Assembly (NCBI RefSeq): GCF_900142435.1
Contig: NZ_LT670846.1
Span: 648,750 to 712,749, forward strand
Origin: Thermocrinis minervae
Lineage (GTDB): Bacteria; Aquificota; Aquificia; Aquificales; Aquificaceae
Direction: 5' to 3'
Length of the DNA stretch: 64,000 nucleotides
Position numbers and translations under genes: made by a program. Positions 43,940-50,612 of the stretch are shown one piece after another (position 1 is the first letter of the stretch; each line of letters opens with the position of its first letter). The notes under the pieces were generated by a model, which worked only from the letters and a program-made list of their open reading frames with translations, was not told where the DNA came from and ran no database searches.

Positions 43940-46900
43940 CTACTCGCGGGATTGCCCAAAATATCTTTCCACGATTCTTATCTCATCCTCTGTAAGCCCG
44001 TAGAGTTTATACACCAGCTGATCAATCTGACGTTGGTACTCATTAACTTTCTCTTGCTTTTGTGAATTTTCAAGATAGTCTTCAGATTGGGTAATAGAAA
44101 GGATTTGGTCAACAAGGTTTTCTATTTGTTTAACTATATGTTGGTTTTGTGGAGTGATGGGGGGAATGGGAAGTTGTTCTATTTTATCTTTTGCTCCATA
44201 AGCATATTTTCCGAGAGTTGACAGATTGGTAAATAACAGTAAAAGATAATCAGCGAATTTACTGTTTAAAATTCCAATAAGATATTTCAAAATAGACGTT
44301 TCCCCAGTAATCATAAATAAAGCATTCGTTAGATATAAACCTGGTGGAATATATGCGAAATTGTATCTTCCACTTACATGTTGCCACACAATTTTTTCTT
44401 TTTCAAATTCGGGGTAGTAAGTTGCGGCACATCGCTGTAGGGCATACCATTCATATCTGATACCTGTTTCTTCTTTTTTTCTTTTTAACAGTGTATCTTT
44501 AAATTGTAAAAGGTGATTATAAATACTTGGATATTGCTTTTTAAATTCTTGCTCTGCCCTTATGCTTGCTCCCTGAATTGATGAGTCATCATGCAAAGGA
44601 AAATGCCAAGGAATAAAAATAACCCACAACCCCGCCCATTTATAGTAATACTTTCCAATATCCCTACCTCTTAAAACAGGTTTTATTATTTCTTCTGTTC
44701 TTTTTCTCTCTTCTTCTGTTCTACAGTTAGCTAATATCCTATTCCTGGTTTCTGTGTCAATTATAAATGCCTCGTTGTAGCCTGTTACAATCCCTATATA
44801 AATTTTTACATCCCATTCTTTTAGTGGTTTTCCAACACGTTCTATTTTTTCTTTTAGTCTTAAAACTTCTTCATCTTCAAGAGTCCAGCATTTATCATCA
44901 AGTTTTTCTTGCGGAATGAAGTTGTAGTTATTTTCAATGTATGAGATTACATCTTCACCTGGCGGTAACGATCTGACGTTAACAAATTCTACCATGCCTG
45001 TAGGAGTTCCAGGGCTAGCTTTTTTCCTAACCAGGATTATGTTCGTATCAACGGTCTGCTCAAACACCCTATAGCCACTAAAATCGATGATCTTCAAAAC
45101 CTCCGTTTCCTGTTTTAAAAACTTCCTTAATTTTTCTCCATATTTTGCTCTCATCCACTTATTGCTTGTTATAAAACAGAGAATTCCGTTGGGTTTTAAG
45201 ATCTCCAATCCCTTTTCATAGAAGTAAGTGTATAGGTCAGCTGTAGAGTCGTAAATTTTATATTTTGCCTTTTGTAATAGTGGTTTAAGTTCTTTTATCC
45301 TTTTATGCCTGACATACGGTGGATTTCCTATTACTATGTCAAAACCCTTTTTACCATTTTCTTCGTGGAACACTTCTGAGAAGTAAACCTTAAAATCAAA
45401 CTCCTTATGTCCGTTTGTTATCTTATGGATTAAACCATCAATTTCTTCCCTTAATTCTCGTTTTTTAATCGGATGTGTCTCATTGAAATATTGACGTTTT
45501 AAATGTTCAAGTTCCAAAAGATCCTTACTATTAAATAAATTCTTTTCAATTCCCAGAAGAGAATTTCCAACAACTACCTTATAATCAAGGTTTGGAAGTG
45601 GCTTTATAGTATGAAAATCTTCCTCATCTACAATCAGAGAAAGCCAAAATCTCAATTTACATACCTCAACTGCACCAGGATCTATATCAACACCATAAAG
45701 AGAGTTTTCAATACAGTGTCTTTTTAGATCGTATGTCTTAATTTCTTTTCCAGTGTATACAGAAAGCAATTGCCTTAACTTTACAATCTCGTGCAACATA
45801 CCTATTGGAAATGCACCTGAACCAACTGCAGGATCACAAACTTTTACATTAGCTAACAGATCATCAATAAGCTCAGCATTATCTCTTATAACTTGTGGTA
45901 TCTGACTTTCATATTTTGTAGATTTTATTTGCCCTTTTTCAATTAAGTCTTGTTTTTCAATGGCTGTTTGCTCTATTTCTTGGATAGAATCTGCCATTTT
46001 TACAAACTTTTCAATCTCATCTCTGAGGTTTTCGGGCTTGTTGGGAAGCCTTGAGCTTAGCTCACTCTCTAGGTAATAAACCAAACTTTGCTGACACATG
46101 TAGTGGACTATTTCCCTTGGTGTGTAGTAGACACCATACTCTTTGTTAAACTTTGTTTCATCTCCTTTCTTACCAGACTTTAAAACCTTCACGTATTCAT
46201 CAAAGTTATCAGATCTTATAGCGTTTAGTTTTTCATAGATTTTTCCAAGCAGTTCTGGATCAAGGGCAACCTCTTTATCAAGCGGCTCCTCTTCATTCAC
46301 AGTAAAGTTATACCTATCAAACACATCAAGTATTCCGTCTCCTATATCTCCTTCCTTTGTTTTGTTTTTGTTTGAGAAAAGCTCATTAGGAAGAAGGATA
46401 TCAACGTTTACCCAATCATAGTTATTTATTGGATCGAATAAACCACCGTTTAAAAATGGAATTCTGCAGTTAAACCTGCTGTAGTAATGGTCATCTGCAC
46501 TTCTATCAGTTCTTAGTGCCTCATAAAAAAGTGGTTCAAGAATATCATTGAAGAAATTATCATAATCACCATACTCTCTGTTAAACAGCCTCCTTATAAA
46601 ATCCTTTGGTCCTGTTCCCCAATCTTCTCCCTTTTTAACTCCAAACCACCCCTTCTTCTGCAAAAAGTATAAAAATGTAATCTGACCCAAAAGCTTCTTC
46701 GCAAAGTCAACAGTGTCTATATTTTTGCTTTCAAATTCTTGCTTTACCCTTGGATCTTTTTCTTTAAGCTCCTCAAGTTTTTCTTTTGTTCTTATAAATA
46801 GATCCCTGTATTTCTCAAAGAACTCCTCCGTGACCCTTTCAACGCTGAATGCTTCCTCTAAATCCTTCAAGGTTATGAGAGTATCCTTTTCAAGCAGTGG

Positions 46901-47416
46901 GACAAACCTGCTCTGTGCTGTATGACTCTTTTCATTCTTGCCAACCAGGAAGGAAAACCTTTTTGCAGGTGTAAGCTCTTCTTTAACCTTTGTTCCTTCA
47001 AAACGATAATCCAGCTTAACAAGAGAAAACCTCCAATCTTCACTATTAGGAGATACAAAAGCTACTAGTGCTGCATCCTTAAACTCTCCGCCCCTACTTC
47101 CTTTTAAGTACCAAGCAACAAAGTTCCTTTGCACTGTTCTGGCTCTTTCAAGGGAAGTTTCCTTTTTTAGAGTGACTATCAGTAGATCAATCTTTTCTTC
47201 TTTTTCTTGCTCTTTATCATAGTTGACATATTTACCGATTCTTTCTAGTGATTTTATGTACTGTTTAAAGGGATCGGGAATATAGTTACCCTGGTAGACA
47301 AAGGGTTTATCCTCAAAGGATTTCAATAAATTCTTAAGAAACCTGACGTACCTGTCCCTATCAAAAGGCTTTTCAAATGTTTCTCTTACGATCTTCTTAG
47401 CCTGCTCTTTATCCAT
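43940..47416 (-). CDS. Large N6-adenine DNA methylase, Eco57I/PglX-like, probable defence protein
   Basis: 1158 residues. Methylase core: YYTPREIVHYM (about 430), SAM motif I VCDPAVGSGAFPIGML (about 526-541), YGVDIDPGAVEVCKLRFWLS, and motif IV IVIGNPPYVRHK (NPPY, about 698-701), marking N6-adenine methylation. The C-terminal part (about 800-1130) looks like target recognition (KYAYGAKDKIEQLPIPPI). The N-terminal 400 residues include DLLIVTLKKETSLERARTVQ (about 77-96), a possible divergent nuclease or specificity region; no clear PD-ExK is visible. It overlaps the PLD-helicase gene by 8 bp. Base and codon use are clearly more A+T-rich than the flanking genes. DISARM DrmMI, BREX PglX and type IIG enzymes are the nearest known types. 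Confidence 0.82.
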   Translation of the reverse strand: MDKEQAKKIVRETFEKPFDRDRYVRFLKNLLKSFEDKPFVYQGNYIPDPFKQYIKSLERIGKYVNYDKEQEKEEKIDLLIVTLKKETSLERARTVQRNFVAWYLKGSRGGEFKDAALVAFVSPNSEDWRFSLVKLDYRFEGTKVKEELTPAKRFSFLVGKNEKSHTAQSRFVPLLEKDTLITLKDLEEAFSVERVTEEFFEKYRDLFIRTKEKLEELKEKDPRVKQEFESKNIDTVDFAKKLLGQITFLYFLQKKGWFGVKKGEDWGTGPKDFIRRLFNREYGDYDNFFNDILEPLFYEALRTDRSADDHYYSRFNCRIPFLNGGLFDPINNYDWVNVDILLPNELFSNKNKTKEGDIGDGILDVFDRYNFTVNEEEPLDKEVALDPELLGKIYEKLNAIRSDNFDEYVKVLKSGKKGDETKFNKEYGVYYTPREIVHYMCQQSLVYYLESELSSRLPNKPENLRDEIEKFVKMADSIQEIEQTAIEKQDLIEKGQIKSTKYESQIPQVIRDNAELIDDLLANVKVCDPAVGSGAFPIGMLHEIVKLRQLLSVYTGKEIKTYDLKRHCIENSLYGVDIDPGAVEVCKLRFWLSLIVDEEDFHTIKPLPNLDYKVVVGNSLLGIEKNLFNSKDLLELEHLKRQYFNETHPIKKRELREEIDGLIHKITNGHKEFDFKVYFSEVFHEENGKKGFDIVIGNPPYVRHKRIKELKPLLQKAKYKIYDSTADLYTYFYEKGLEILKPNGILCFITSNKWMRAKYGEKLRKFLKQETEVLKIIDFSGYRVFEQTVDTNIILVRKKASPGTPTGMVEFVNVRSLPPGEDVISYIENNYNFIPQEKLDDKCWTLEDEEVLRLKEKIERVGKPLKEWDVKIYIGIVTGYNEAFIIDTETRNRILANCRTEEERKRTEEIIKPVLRGRDIGKYYYKWAGLWVIFIPWHFPLHDDSSIQGASIRAEQEFKKQYPSIYNHLLQFKDTLLKRKKEETGIRYEWYALQRCAATYYPEFEKEKIVWQHVSGRYNFAYIPPGLYLTNALFMITGETSILKYLIGILNSKFADYLLLLFTNLSTLGKYAYGAKDKIEQLPIPPITPQNQHIVKQIENLVDQILSITQSEDYLENSQKQEKVNEYQRQIDQLVYKLYGLTEDEIRIVERYFGQSRE

Positions 47417-50400
47417 CTTCTTCCCTCACTAGATAAAGCGAGAGTACAACCTCTTCGTTTTCTTTTATTTTAGCAGAAGTTTTTGCATGGTGGTCATTAA
47501 GAAATGTGGCCGGCACTTTTCTTTTTAATACATCTATTACTTTTAATGGATCCTGTATTCCTTTTCCAAGTTTCTCTAATTCTTTTAGAATTTCCTTTAC
47601 TATTCGTTTTGGTAGGACTCTTTCTTCTAGCCGCTTTATGATTATGTTCAGGAACTTTTTATCCTCTTTAGGAATTTGTTCACTGTTTCTCTGTATTGCT
47701 TTTAGGATTTTTAAAAGTTTGGCATAAATGTCAGAACCACCATGTCCGTGAGGTTCACTGTTTTCTTCTGCAGTTGCATTAGAGAACGCATTTCTATTTT
47801 TATTAAGGAGTTTATAATAATCCTCAAGGGATAATTTTGCTCTTTTCTCATCCTGCGTGCTTTCGAGAATCTTTGCGGCTGTCAAGAAATCAAGCTCTAT
47901 GGCTGTCTCTTTTTCTCTGTCTGAGATAAAGAATTTCATTAGCTTACCTTTTCTGAAGAAAGTGATTAGCGAGTTAGGAGGAGCAATATCCCTTAAGGAT
48001 TGAGGGATTATTTTTGCAGAACGAGCTTTTTTAGGAAGATTCTGTATTTTTTTAAAGAGCTTAGGGTTTTCATCACGGATTTTTTCAATAATCCTCAAAT
48101 ACTTCAGTTCACTTTCTTCCTCCTCTTCATCTTCCATGAGTGTTTTCTTCGAAAGCAGTTTATCAAACAGTTCATGAGAAGAAACAGGTTCTCCTTCGGT
48201 TAAGATTGCGCTATCGCTACCCAGTAACGTTAAAAAGGCTTCTATCTTTGAACGAGCAATTTTTGTAAGCTCAATTTCAGAGTCTGCTTGTATTGTTGGG
48301 AAAAAGTTGAAAACATAAATCTTATCAAACTCTGTGCCTATTCTGTTAACCCTTCCTACCCTTTGCATTAATCTTGTTGGATTCCAAGGTATATCGTAGT
48401 TTATCACGATGTTTGACCTATGAAGGTTTACACCCTCAGAAAGAATGTCTGTCGTAACAAGTATTTTATAATCATCCTTCTTATCTTTTGCTCTTGCATC
48501 AAAGTTTTCTATGATCTCATTCTTTACCTTTTCAGACATACCACTATGAAACAGGAGAGCAGTTCGACCAAACTTTTCGTTTATCTTCTCAGCCAAGTAA
48601 TCAGCTGTTTCTTTAGACTCCGTAAAGATTATTATTTTCTTGTTCTTGAGGATTGGGTTATTTTCTAATTCGTATAGCAATTTTTCAAGCTTTGGATCCC
48701 TATTTATAGATTCCCACATAGACTTTATCTTTTTTAAAATCCCTAAGTCTTTTTCTAGATCTTCTTTAAACTCGGGTTTAAAATCTTCACTATTGTATTT
48801 TTTTACTTTCCCTTTATCAATAAGTTCCTGGATTTTTTCATCATCACCTTCTTCCAAATATTCAATTATCTTATGTATGCTAATGTCTTTACTTATGTAG
48901 ACATTTCCGTTCTCGTATTCTTTAATAAACATTTCGTAGGAGCGAATAAACCTGTCCACGCTTTTTCTGAATGCATAAAAGCTGCTTTCAAGACGTTTTA
49001 CGAGAAGTACCTTCATAAAACTGCCCATGTTTTTTTGCGATTGTTCTTCCAGTCGAGTGATGGACTTCTTTAGATAAAGTAATGGCATATAACGTGCATA
49101 CCTAAACTCCTGGGTTATTAACCTTACGGTCTCCATAAATATCCTGTCTTCATCATCGTTTAACTGGTAATAAAAGGGCTTTGGGTCTTCAACTTCTGGA
49201 AATTTAATATTGTTTTTCTCTAAATCCTCTGCAAAATATTTTGCAATCTCCGATCTTGTCCTTCTAACCATTATATATTTCAAAACCTTATCTCGGATTT
49301 CCTTGGCGTTTTCTCTTACTGTTTTCAGATATTGCTCATAGTCTTTTTGGCGATCAACTTTTTTTAATCTCTCTTCAAGCTTCTTGAAAAATTTCTCAAG
49401 GTCTCTAACACCTGGTATAGTACTGTTTTTTGGGCTTTGAAATAGTTTAATCTGTGCTAGAATATCTCTTGGTGAGTTATTATAAGGAGTTGCAGATATC
49501 AAGATTACTCTTTTTCCGCGGCAGACTTCAGAAATTTTTTCATAACTAACGGTTGTTTCATTCCTGAAGCGATGAGCTTCGTCTACGATGATATTTTTAT
49601 ATTCTCTTTTCTTTATTGACTCTACTGCCTCATCTAGCTTACCAATTGATACAAAGTCAGCTGGGATACGAAAATCGGAAAAAACATTAGGCCATGAACC
49701 TGGATTATTTTTGTCAATAAGCGCAGGTGGAGCTATGACAAGTGTTCTACCATCAAGCTGTTTTACGAGCATTGCTGCCATGTAAGTTTTACCAAGCCCT
49801 ACCACATCGGAAAGGAAAACACCACCGTACTCTTCTAGTATTTTTTTGGCGTTTAAAACTGCTTGTTTTTGGTATTCGAATTCTTTAAAACCTTCAGGTA
49901 AATACTGTAGGAAAACCTCATCAGATAAAGAAAGCTCATCCTTAAAATACTCGTACAGGAACTTAAGGTATAGTTCATAAGGGGTGATATCTTCTTTCAG
50001 CCAGGTTTCTTCACTGATTGTTTTAGTGAACACTTCAGTGATGTCAATGGCTTGTTCCCACAACTCTTCAAACTTACGTTTTGCAAATTCATAATCAGCT
50101 CTGTTTTTTAACTCCACGTTGAACTCAAGGTTGTCTGTAAGTCCAGATTGAGTGAAATTGCTTGATCCTGTGATAACCCTTCCTACATCTCTATCCCCTT
50201 CTTTAAAGGTGAATATGTACACTTTTGCATGAAGTCTACGGGATGGATAAGCTTTTATCTCAAGCTTATTTTGTCTTATCCACTCAATAAACTTTCGAAC
50301 TCCTTCCTCAACTTCTAAACTGTCCTCAGAGTTGTCCATTTCATCCTTTATACGGGTCTTAACATCCTCCTCTACATCTTTGATAGAGTAAGCTTCTATG

Positions 50401-50612
50401 ATATATTTGCTTACTTCGGGCGTTGTCCCCATCCCTATAAGGATCCTTATTTTCTCTGCGTTTTCTAGGGCTTTGTAAATAGCATGAAAGCCTGTTATGT
50501 GAAAGTAACCTGTGATGCAATCAAAGCTTCTGCAATCTTTTATGAGCTTTATGAACCTGTCTTTTAGCGTTTCACCTTCTTCGTTTACAAAGAAGGTCAG
50601 GTCAGATGCCAT
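47409..50612 (-). CDS. PLD-domain SNF2-type helicase, probable defence protein
   Basis: 1067 residues. N-terminal phospholipase-D-like nuclease domain: LHAKVYIF (about 127-134) and TGSSNFTQSGL (about 148-158), giving HxK and GSxN; the aspartate of a full HKD motif is not obvious. Superfamily 2 helicase: Walker A DVVGLGKTYMA (about 269-279), DEAH box IIVDEAHRFRN, LISATPYNN, and motifs V-VI TDILSEGVNLHRS and QRVGRVNRIG. It overlaps the methylase by 8 bp and is the first gene of the pair. Its promoter (minus TATAAT 50633-50628) overlaps the rsmE stop, with AAGGGGG as ribosome site. A+T-rich, suggesting transfer. Confidence 0.85.
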   Translation of the reverse strand: MASDLTFFVNEEGETLKDRFIKLIKDCRSFDCITGYFHITGFHAIYKALENAEKIRILIGMGTTPEVSKYIIEAYSIKDVEEDVKTRIKDEMDNSEDSLEVEEGVRKFIEWIRQNKLEIKAYPSRRLHAKVYIFTFKEGDRDVGRVITGSSNFTQSGLTDNLEFNVELKNRADYEFAKRKFEELWEQAIDITEVFTKTISEETWLKEDITPYELYLKFLYEYFKDELSLSDEVFLQYLPEGFKEFEYQKQAVLNAKKILEEYGGVFLSDVVGLGKTYMAAMLVKQLDGRTLVIAPPALIDKNNPGSWPNVFSDFRIPADFVSIGKLDEAVESIKKREYKNIIVDEAHRFRNETTVSYEKISEVCRGKRVILISATPYNNSPRDILAQIKLFQSPKNSTIPGVRDLEKFFKKLEERLKKVDRQKDYEQYLKTVRENAKEIRDKVLKYIMVRRTRSEIAKYFAEDLEKNNIKFPEVEDPKPFYYQLNDDEDRIFMETVRLITQEFRYARYMPLLYLKKSITRLEEQSQKNMGSFMKVLLVKRLESSFYAFRKSVDRFIRSYEMFIKEYENGNVYISKDISIHKIIEYLEEGDDEKIQELIDKGKVKKYNSEDFKPEFKEDLEKDLGILKKIKSMWESINRDPKLEKLLYELENNPILKNKKIIIFTESKETADYLAEKINEKFGRTALLFHSGMSEKVKNEIIENFDARAKDKKDDYKILVTTDILSEGVNLHRSNIVINYDIPWNPTRLMQRVGRVNRIGTEFDKIYVFNFFPTIQADSEIELTKIARSKIEAFLTLLGSDSAILTEGEPVSSHELFDKLLSKKTLMEDEEEEESELKYLRIIEKIRDENPKLFKKIQNLPKKARSAKIIPQSLRDIAPPNSLITFFRKGKLMKFFISDREKETAIELDFLTAAKILESTQDEKRAKLSLEDYYKLLNKNRNAFSNATAEENSEPHGHGGSDIYAKLLKILKAIQRNSEQIPKEDKKFLNIIIKRLEERVLPKRIVKEILKELEKLGKGIQDPLKVIDVLKRKVPATFLNDHHAKTSAKIKENEEVVLSLYLVREEDG

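Follow-up and report, generated by a model that had tools for sequence, protein, structure and literature searches.

The window analysed here, a stretch of 64,000 nucleotides from the Thermocrinis minervae genome, harbors two overlapping genes that are likely to constitute a complete, horizontally moving ATP-dependent restriction-modification (R-M) cassette, in which a methylase would guide a translocating nuclease of the HKD-SNF2 type (Table 1). We observed the domain content of both proteins with their catalytic motifs intact, a near-obligate pairing of the two genes, swapped recognition domains, and an occurrence in unrelated hosts as well as in phages. For the activity of the pair, we infer complex formation, translocation, cleavage, one-strand methylation and phage defence. 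The methylase would bind an asymmetric target via its single C-terminal recognition domain and mark adenine there, probably on a single strand. Where foreign DNA is unmarked, the methylase would recruit or activate the HKD-SNF2 protein, which would move along duplex DNA using ATP and cut when two HKD domains pair.

Two intact genes in a low-GC locus

An earlier note on this DNA had described two large overlapping genes forming an A+T-richer island in a hisG/rsmE setting, a description that agrees with our data. Both open reading frames are intact, with the helicase gene located upstream of the methylase gene, and the flanking ORFs are hisG-like and rsmE-like. The GC contents of the methylase and helicase genes are 0.354 and 0.358 (GC3 0.31 and 0.33), compared with 0.455–0.500 (GC3 0.50–0.58) for six further window genes, the two neighbours among them. 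The pair thus has a base composition as would be expected of a recent arrival. Relatives that possess both rsmE and hisG carry them at distant positions or on separate contigs, and because the two are not neighbours there, an empty site is not demonstrable; a clean insertion between rsmE and hisG was rejected on the same ground. Rfam searches at the gathering score yielded no RNA elements, and the counts of promoter-like and terminator-like sequences showed no excess over shuffles.

Table 1 Features of the two-gene locus, in window coordinates
Feature	Coordinates	Strand	Remarks
N6-adenine DNA methylase	43940..47416	-	1158 aa, intact ORF; putative modification and specificity subunit with its own target-recognition domain
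HKD (PLD-like) nuclease-SWI2/SNF2 ATPase fusion	47409..50612	-	1067 aa, intact ORF; putative restriction/translocation subunit
Reading-frame overlap, 8 bp	47409..47416	-	ATGGATAA
PLD-like nuclease domain	50058..50546	-	helicase residues ~23-185; PLDc_2 3.8e-13; RE_NgoFVII 1.1e-7
HxK...GSSN active-site motif	50157..50231	-	helicase residues 128-152
SNF2 ATPase core	48333..49883	-	helicase residues ~244-760 (GLGKT 272, DEAH 344, QRVGRVNR 750)
Helicase C-terminal region	47409..48125	-	residues ~830-1067; no fold assigned, model too weak
Methylase N-terminal alpha/beta domain	46802..47416	-	residues 1-205; proposed docking domain
Methylase motif I DPAVGSGAF (AdoMet site)	45809..45835	-	residues 528-536
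Methylase motif IV NPPY	45314..45325	-	residues 698-701; recognition-domain exchange junction in relatives
Target-recognition region	44117..45139	-	methylase residues ~760-1100; Pfam and conservation profile

The helicase protein matched the Pfam families PLDc_2, SNF2-rel_dom and Helicase_C, and more weakly RE_NgoFVII. The previously claimed fusion of a PLD nuclease to an SF2 helicase was confirmed by the motifs HAK (128), GSSN (152), GLGKT, DEAH and QRVGRVNR, all of which are present. The H, K and GSSN of the HKD motif are identical in 33/33 homologues from three clades (A, B and C), and the SNF2 motifs are invariant among the compared homologues. The predicted model of the helicase, of modest to poor quality (pLDDT 67), matches the folds of SNF2 duplex-DNA motors and of SauUSI (7clg). 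The top PADLOC match was a partial one to C3a139 'HKD+Snf2' (201 bits); the scores against NCBIfam DrmD (159 bits, cut-off 610) and against NF042964, a phospholipase D-like anti-phage protein (161 bits, equivalog cut-off 1100), lie below the respective cut-offs. The PLD-SF2 order and the match to 7clg would also suit a modification-dependent Type IV enzyme resembling SauUSI with the methylase as an independent neighbour. We regard this as very improbable, as Pfam detected no SRA-like reader domain in the helicase, which moreover co-varies with the amino-terminal half of the methylase in a gene order kept across phyla.

In the methylase, the motifs DPAVGSGAF and NPPY are present as claimed before, and Pfam matches comprise an Eco57I methylase (3e-49) and a TaqI_C specificity domain (1.5e-10). 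The protein is thus a gamma-class methylase with a C-terminal recognition domain, as in Type IIG enzymes, and it matches the PADLOC 'REase_MTase_IIG' model PDLC03596 over its full length (1179 bits). Type IIG enzymes have an N-terminal nuclease. The same-chain nuclease required of such an enzyme was not found in the methylase by Pfam (residues 1–440, E ≤ 5; nothing nuclease-like above chance across 16 methylase members), by fold search with a weak model of residues 1–440 (pLDDT 79; no confident PDB match, none under E 0.1), or by cross-clade residue comparison, where E198 is the sole D/E/K within residues 1–200 conserved across clades A and B. Likewise, a PD-(D/E)XK nuclease in the N-terminus was discarded for want of a Pfam or PDB match and due to the loss of the single conserved Asp, D77, in clade B.

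Because the methylase N-terminus carries no nuclease signature and the HKD motif does not vary among the compared helicases, the cutting function would reside on the helicase protein, and we propose the methylase N-terminus as a docking domain. That the methylase is instead a true Type IIG enzyme, cutting and methylating alone beside an accessory helicase or a separate defence gene, would be in line with the PADLOC match and with the filing of Prevotella relatives as Type IIG (PMC5608340), but is unlikely, as the searches of residues 1–440 found no nuclease domain and the helicase is kept in nearly every locus. The database filing of the methylase as a single-protein 'Type IIG' is thus probably wrong. 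Two methylases of 1408 and 1391 aa (L062:10217-14443 and L025:11776-15951) contain ~240 additional residues between motif I and NPPY.

Pairing across genomes and carriage by phages

A helicase-based scan with one genome per species identified 36 loci with 54–70% identity, the record titles of which name Thermodesulfobacterium, Deltaproteobacteria, Marinimicrobia, Spirochaetes, Omnitrophota, WOR-3, Aminicenantes and Parcubacteria-type bacteria, among others. Seven of the 36 end at a contig edge within or just after the helicase, leaving 29 evaluable loci. In 27 of these, the helicase is followed on the same strand by a methylase homologue, in some cases decayed; the two exceptions are L047, with a truncated helicase, and L023, where the helicase is intact but lies at the start of a contig. 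Among 136 genomes of the host phylum, we found a close helicase in 17, the methylase N-terminus in 18 and both in 16, an overlap with a hypergeometric probability of ~1e-17 if relatedness is ignored. The genes are adjacent in 13 of these 16 genomes and lie on separate contigs in the remaining 3. For clade B, with helicases 32–37% identical, the same gene order was observed in 9/9 complete aligned examples. The earlier note had suggested searching for the same pair in other genomes, and co-occurrence was indeed found (27/29 loci; 16/17 host-phylum genomes with the helicase): methylase and nuclease genes are consistently paired, as is generally the case for R-M systems.

At three loci (L039:10061-14752, L041:1021-7393 and L063:9455-12989) the pair is broken by frame interruptions, reflecting either decay or assembly error. 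On the Enterococcus faecium plasmid pQL50 (L082:6908-15855), a distantly related helicase of the PLD-SNF2 type precedes genes for DUF4391, for a site-specific methyltransferase and for a DEAD/DEAH helicase, an arrangement of three to four genes differing from the two-gene pair.

Several loci harbor further genes between helicase and methylase, with families of members lacking an individual scan assigned by sequence likeness. MntA-HepT toxin-antitoxin pairs are found in L013, L016, L025 and L048 (nested MntA-HepT-like pairs at L013:13179-13801, L025:11125-11783 and L048:13191-13834), SLFN_AlbA_2 proteins in L029, L030, L033, L041 and L042, a DUF3800 protein in L034 and an ORF6N protein in L043. 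One locus even contains a complete MjaI-like Type II R-M system at this position, consisting of an N4/N6 methylase and an MjaI endonuclease (L018:12945-14878). AAA_13, OLD-type and KAP ATPases are located downstream of pairs. R-M operons are known to host HEPN proteins (PMC3710099), and the genes found between or next to the two partners are of the kind met in such operons.

Complete pairs were also identified in IMG/VR viral contigs (L083:5995-12668, L085:6001-12626 and L088:5893-12815). In L083, the pair lies between phage head genes (minor head, major head, scaffold), and in L085 it is located near the portal and head-protease genes; in both, its orientation is opposite to that of the head genes. 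Beside the phage-borne pairs, no further core gene of a defence system was recognised, supporting the notion that the two genes represent the whole system. Judged from this distribution, the pair appears to be a mobile cassette of bacteria, plasmids and phages spanning many phyla.

A constant engine with an exchanged recognition domain

Within clade A, methylase conservation amounts to 48–79% over most of residues 1–700 and to 15–28% over residues 801–1100. The helicase is mostly conserved at 55–83%, with 36–41% for its last ~120 residues, which form its least conserved stretch except for residues 51–100. Mean identities in this clade are 0.62 for the helicase, 0.61 for the methylase N-half and 0.26 for the recognition domain. 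Pairwise distances of helicase and methylase N-half correlate with r = 0.90 overall, partly owing to the clade split, and with 0.51 within clade A and 0.74 within clade B, whereas distances of helicase and recognition domain yielded an r of about 0. This combination of a constant engine and a seemingly exchangeable recognition domain is what one would expect of an R-M enzyme.

The recognition parts following NPPY are exchanged even across clades that are 30–36% identical elsewhere. In two sister species of one genus, the pair occupies the same site (L065, G009:C1:1332000-1351000, and L056, G017:C1:1321000-1340000) within flanks of 91–95% nucleotide identity, one cassette belonging to clade A and the other to clade B, with helicases only 34% identical. 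Their methylases share 36% identity through NPPY and 85% thereafter; the recognition part is thus common to both, and the switch occurs at the catalytic NPPY motif. The same cross-clade pattern was observed for L013/L056, L062/L067 and L066/L060. By comparison, the window methylase itself is a mosaic: its identity to L018 is 77% before NPPY and 25% after it, and that to L059 is 35% before and 59% after. Short copies of the last 50–100 methylase codons were detected downstream of the methylase, past other genes, in L018 (19398-19559 and 21490-21807), L048 (20141-20341 and 22350-22532) and L066 (4361-4558). These are perhaps scars of repeated recombination at the 3' end of the methylase gene.

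A more distant pair in Prevotella nigrescens (NZ_CP082843.1; L090:4340-15963) encodes a helicase 30% identical to that of the window and a methylase 33% identical over residues 127–693. Downstream of this pair, there are two reversed partial methylase genes, corresponding to recognition cassettes, and an invertase of the Mpi family. A 47-bp inverted repeat (96%) covers the GFDIVIGNPPY codons of the full gene and of the nearer reversed cassette, and the arrangement looks like a specificity shufflon. As the repeat spans the NPPY codons, the recombination junction of the host family is the one apparently used by the inversion in Prevotella. Phase variation of the window copy was rejected, as the region of 40–54 kb contains no inverted repeats of at least 20 nt and the genome lacks a second recognition domain.

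In Prevotella intermedia 17F, Pin17FIII, an m6A 'Type IIG' gene downstream of an SNF2/RAD54 helicase, methylates the non-palindromic GGYGAB when cloned; a partial gene lies reversed just downstream, and two further 17F methylation motifs are unassigned (PMC5608340). Compared by annotation and layout, from which we infer its homology to the window pair, Pin17FIII resembles the pair family in both the upstream helicase and the reversed partial gene. We suggest that the unassigned motifs might be inversion products of one enzyme, a reading that provides a testable answer for them.

Taken a step further, the pair could tentatively be viewed as a distinct ATP-dependent R-M type, in which an HKD-SNF2 motor is served by the recognition domain of a nuclease-less, 'Type IIG'-looking methylase, recombination exactly at NPPY rewires specificity and the 17F motifs are inversion variants of one enzyme. 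Such rewiring would proceed through ordinary recombination in thermophiles and through a dedicated DNA invertase in Bacteroidales. If true, a family catalogued as single-protein Type IIG enzymes would make up one half of a two-gene ATP-dependent system, providing its modification and specificity, and the adjacent helicase would deserve joint annotation. The NPPY exchange junction offers a natural rule for swapping target specificity, rendering domain exchange directly testable in a cassette that is small, modular and mobile.

Comparison with known systems

The earlier note had offered three readings, a minimal DISARM-related or BREX-related system or a type IIG-like enzyme partnered by a helicase. 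The last comes closest, based on the full-length PADLOC IIG match and the conservation of the helicase partner across phyla, whereas the first two were not supported. DUF1998/MZB, PglZ and DUF499 have no match anywhere in the genome of the window, the likeness to DrmD and PglX is partial and weak, and the pair travels alone; some other carrier genomes encode DUF1998/MZB, PglZ or DUF499 elsewhere. The reported absence of drmA/drmB is in accordance with the lack of MZB from the whole genome. Minimal versions of DISARM, BREX, ARMADA and BR were rejected, as their core genes are missing from the genome.

In class 1 DISARM and ARMADA, an SNF2-type helicase adjoins a PglX-like methylase, but both require YprA/DUF1998 proteins, and PLD is absent or encoded by its own gene (PMC12458937, PMC9142583). 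The DrmA/DrmB core with its DUF1998 (MZB) was not found genome-wide, PLD is fused to the helicase rather than present as a separate DrmC (NF038319, 22 bits, cut-off 133), and no YprA-family helicase stands beside the pair, with MZB lacking in the surrounding ORFs as in the genome. For BREX, PglZ was not found in the genome, and the methylase scored 110 bits against the PglX equivalog NF033452 (cut-off 500). A BREX- or ARMADA-like non-cutting block of phage, with self DNA marked by the methylase and replication stalled by the SNF2 motor, is suggested by the resemblance of the pairing to ARMADA/DISARM modules and by the weak DrmD and PglX similarity. It is nevertheless improbable, as the HKD catalytic residues are invariant and PglZ, DUF1998/MZB and DUF499 are absent.

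Type-2 BR likewise combines an HKD-SNF2 fusion effector, a feature shared by the window helicase, with an N6-methylase. It requires, however, a DUF499 ATPase, absent from the genome of the window, and DUF3780, and its methylase, of the DUF1156 type, carries the recognition domain as an insertion within the core, unlike the window methylase (PMC12839542). Type IIG and ISP enzymes share the gamma-type methylase with a C-terminal recognition domain, and ISP also the motor, but carry the nuclease (and motor) on the same polypeptide, whereas the pair employs a second protein with an HKD nuclease (PMC3874165). The single ISP chain of Mrr nuclease, motor, methylase and recognition domain thus differs from the two genes in both layout and nuclease.

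No named two-gene R-M type of identical layout was found in the libraries searched, and literature searches retrieved the general idea of HKD-SF2 effectors with methylases but not a name for the exact pair. A precedent that the earlier note overlooked is the PLD-SF2 fusion in the restriction enzyme SauUSI. In this Type IV enzyme, a PLD nuclease at the N-terminus is joined to an SF2 motor, with ATP-driven movement and DNA shredding demonstrated; unlike the pair, SauUSI recognises methylated cytosine with a C-terminal domain of its own and lacks a partner methylase (PMC7913695). The ATP-dependent R-M systems CglI and NgoAVII combine a PLD nuclease, an SF2 ATPase and a methylase and have an asymmetric site, and Pfam RE_NgoFVII matches the PLD domain of the window. 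In contrast to the pair, their nuclease with its B3 recognition domain and their helicase are separate, and the 5mC methylase is free-standing (PMC4267653). Among characterised enzymes, SauUSI and CglI/NgoAVII are the nearest in mechanism.
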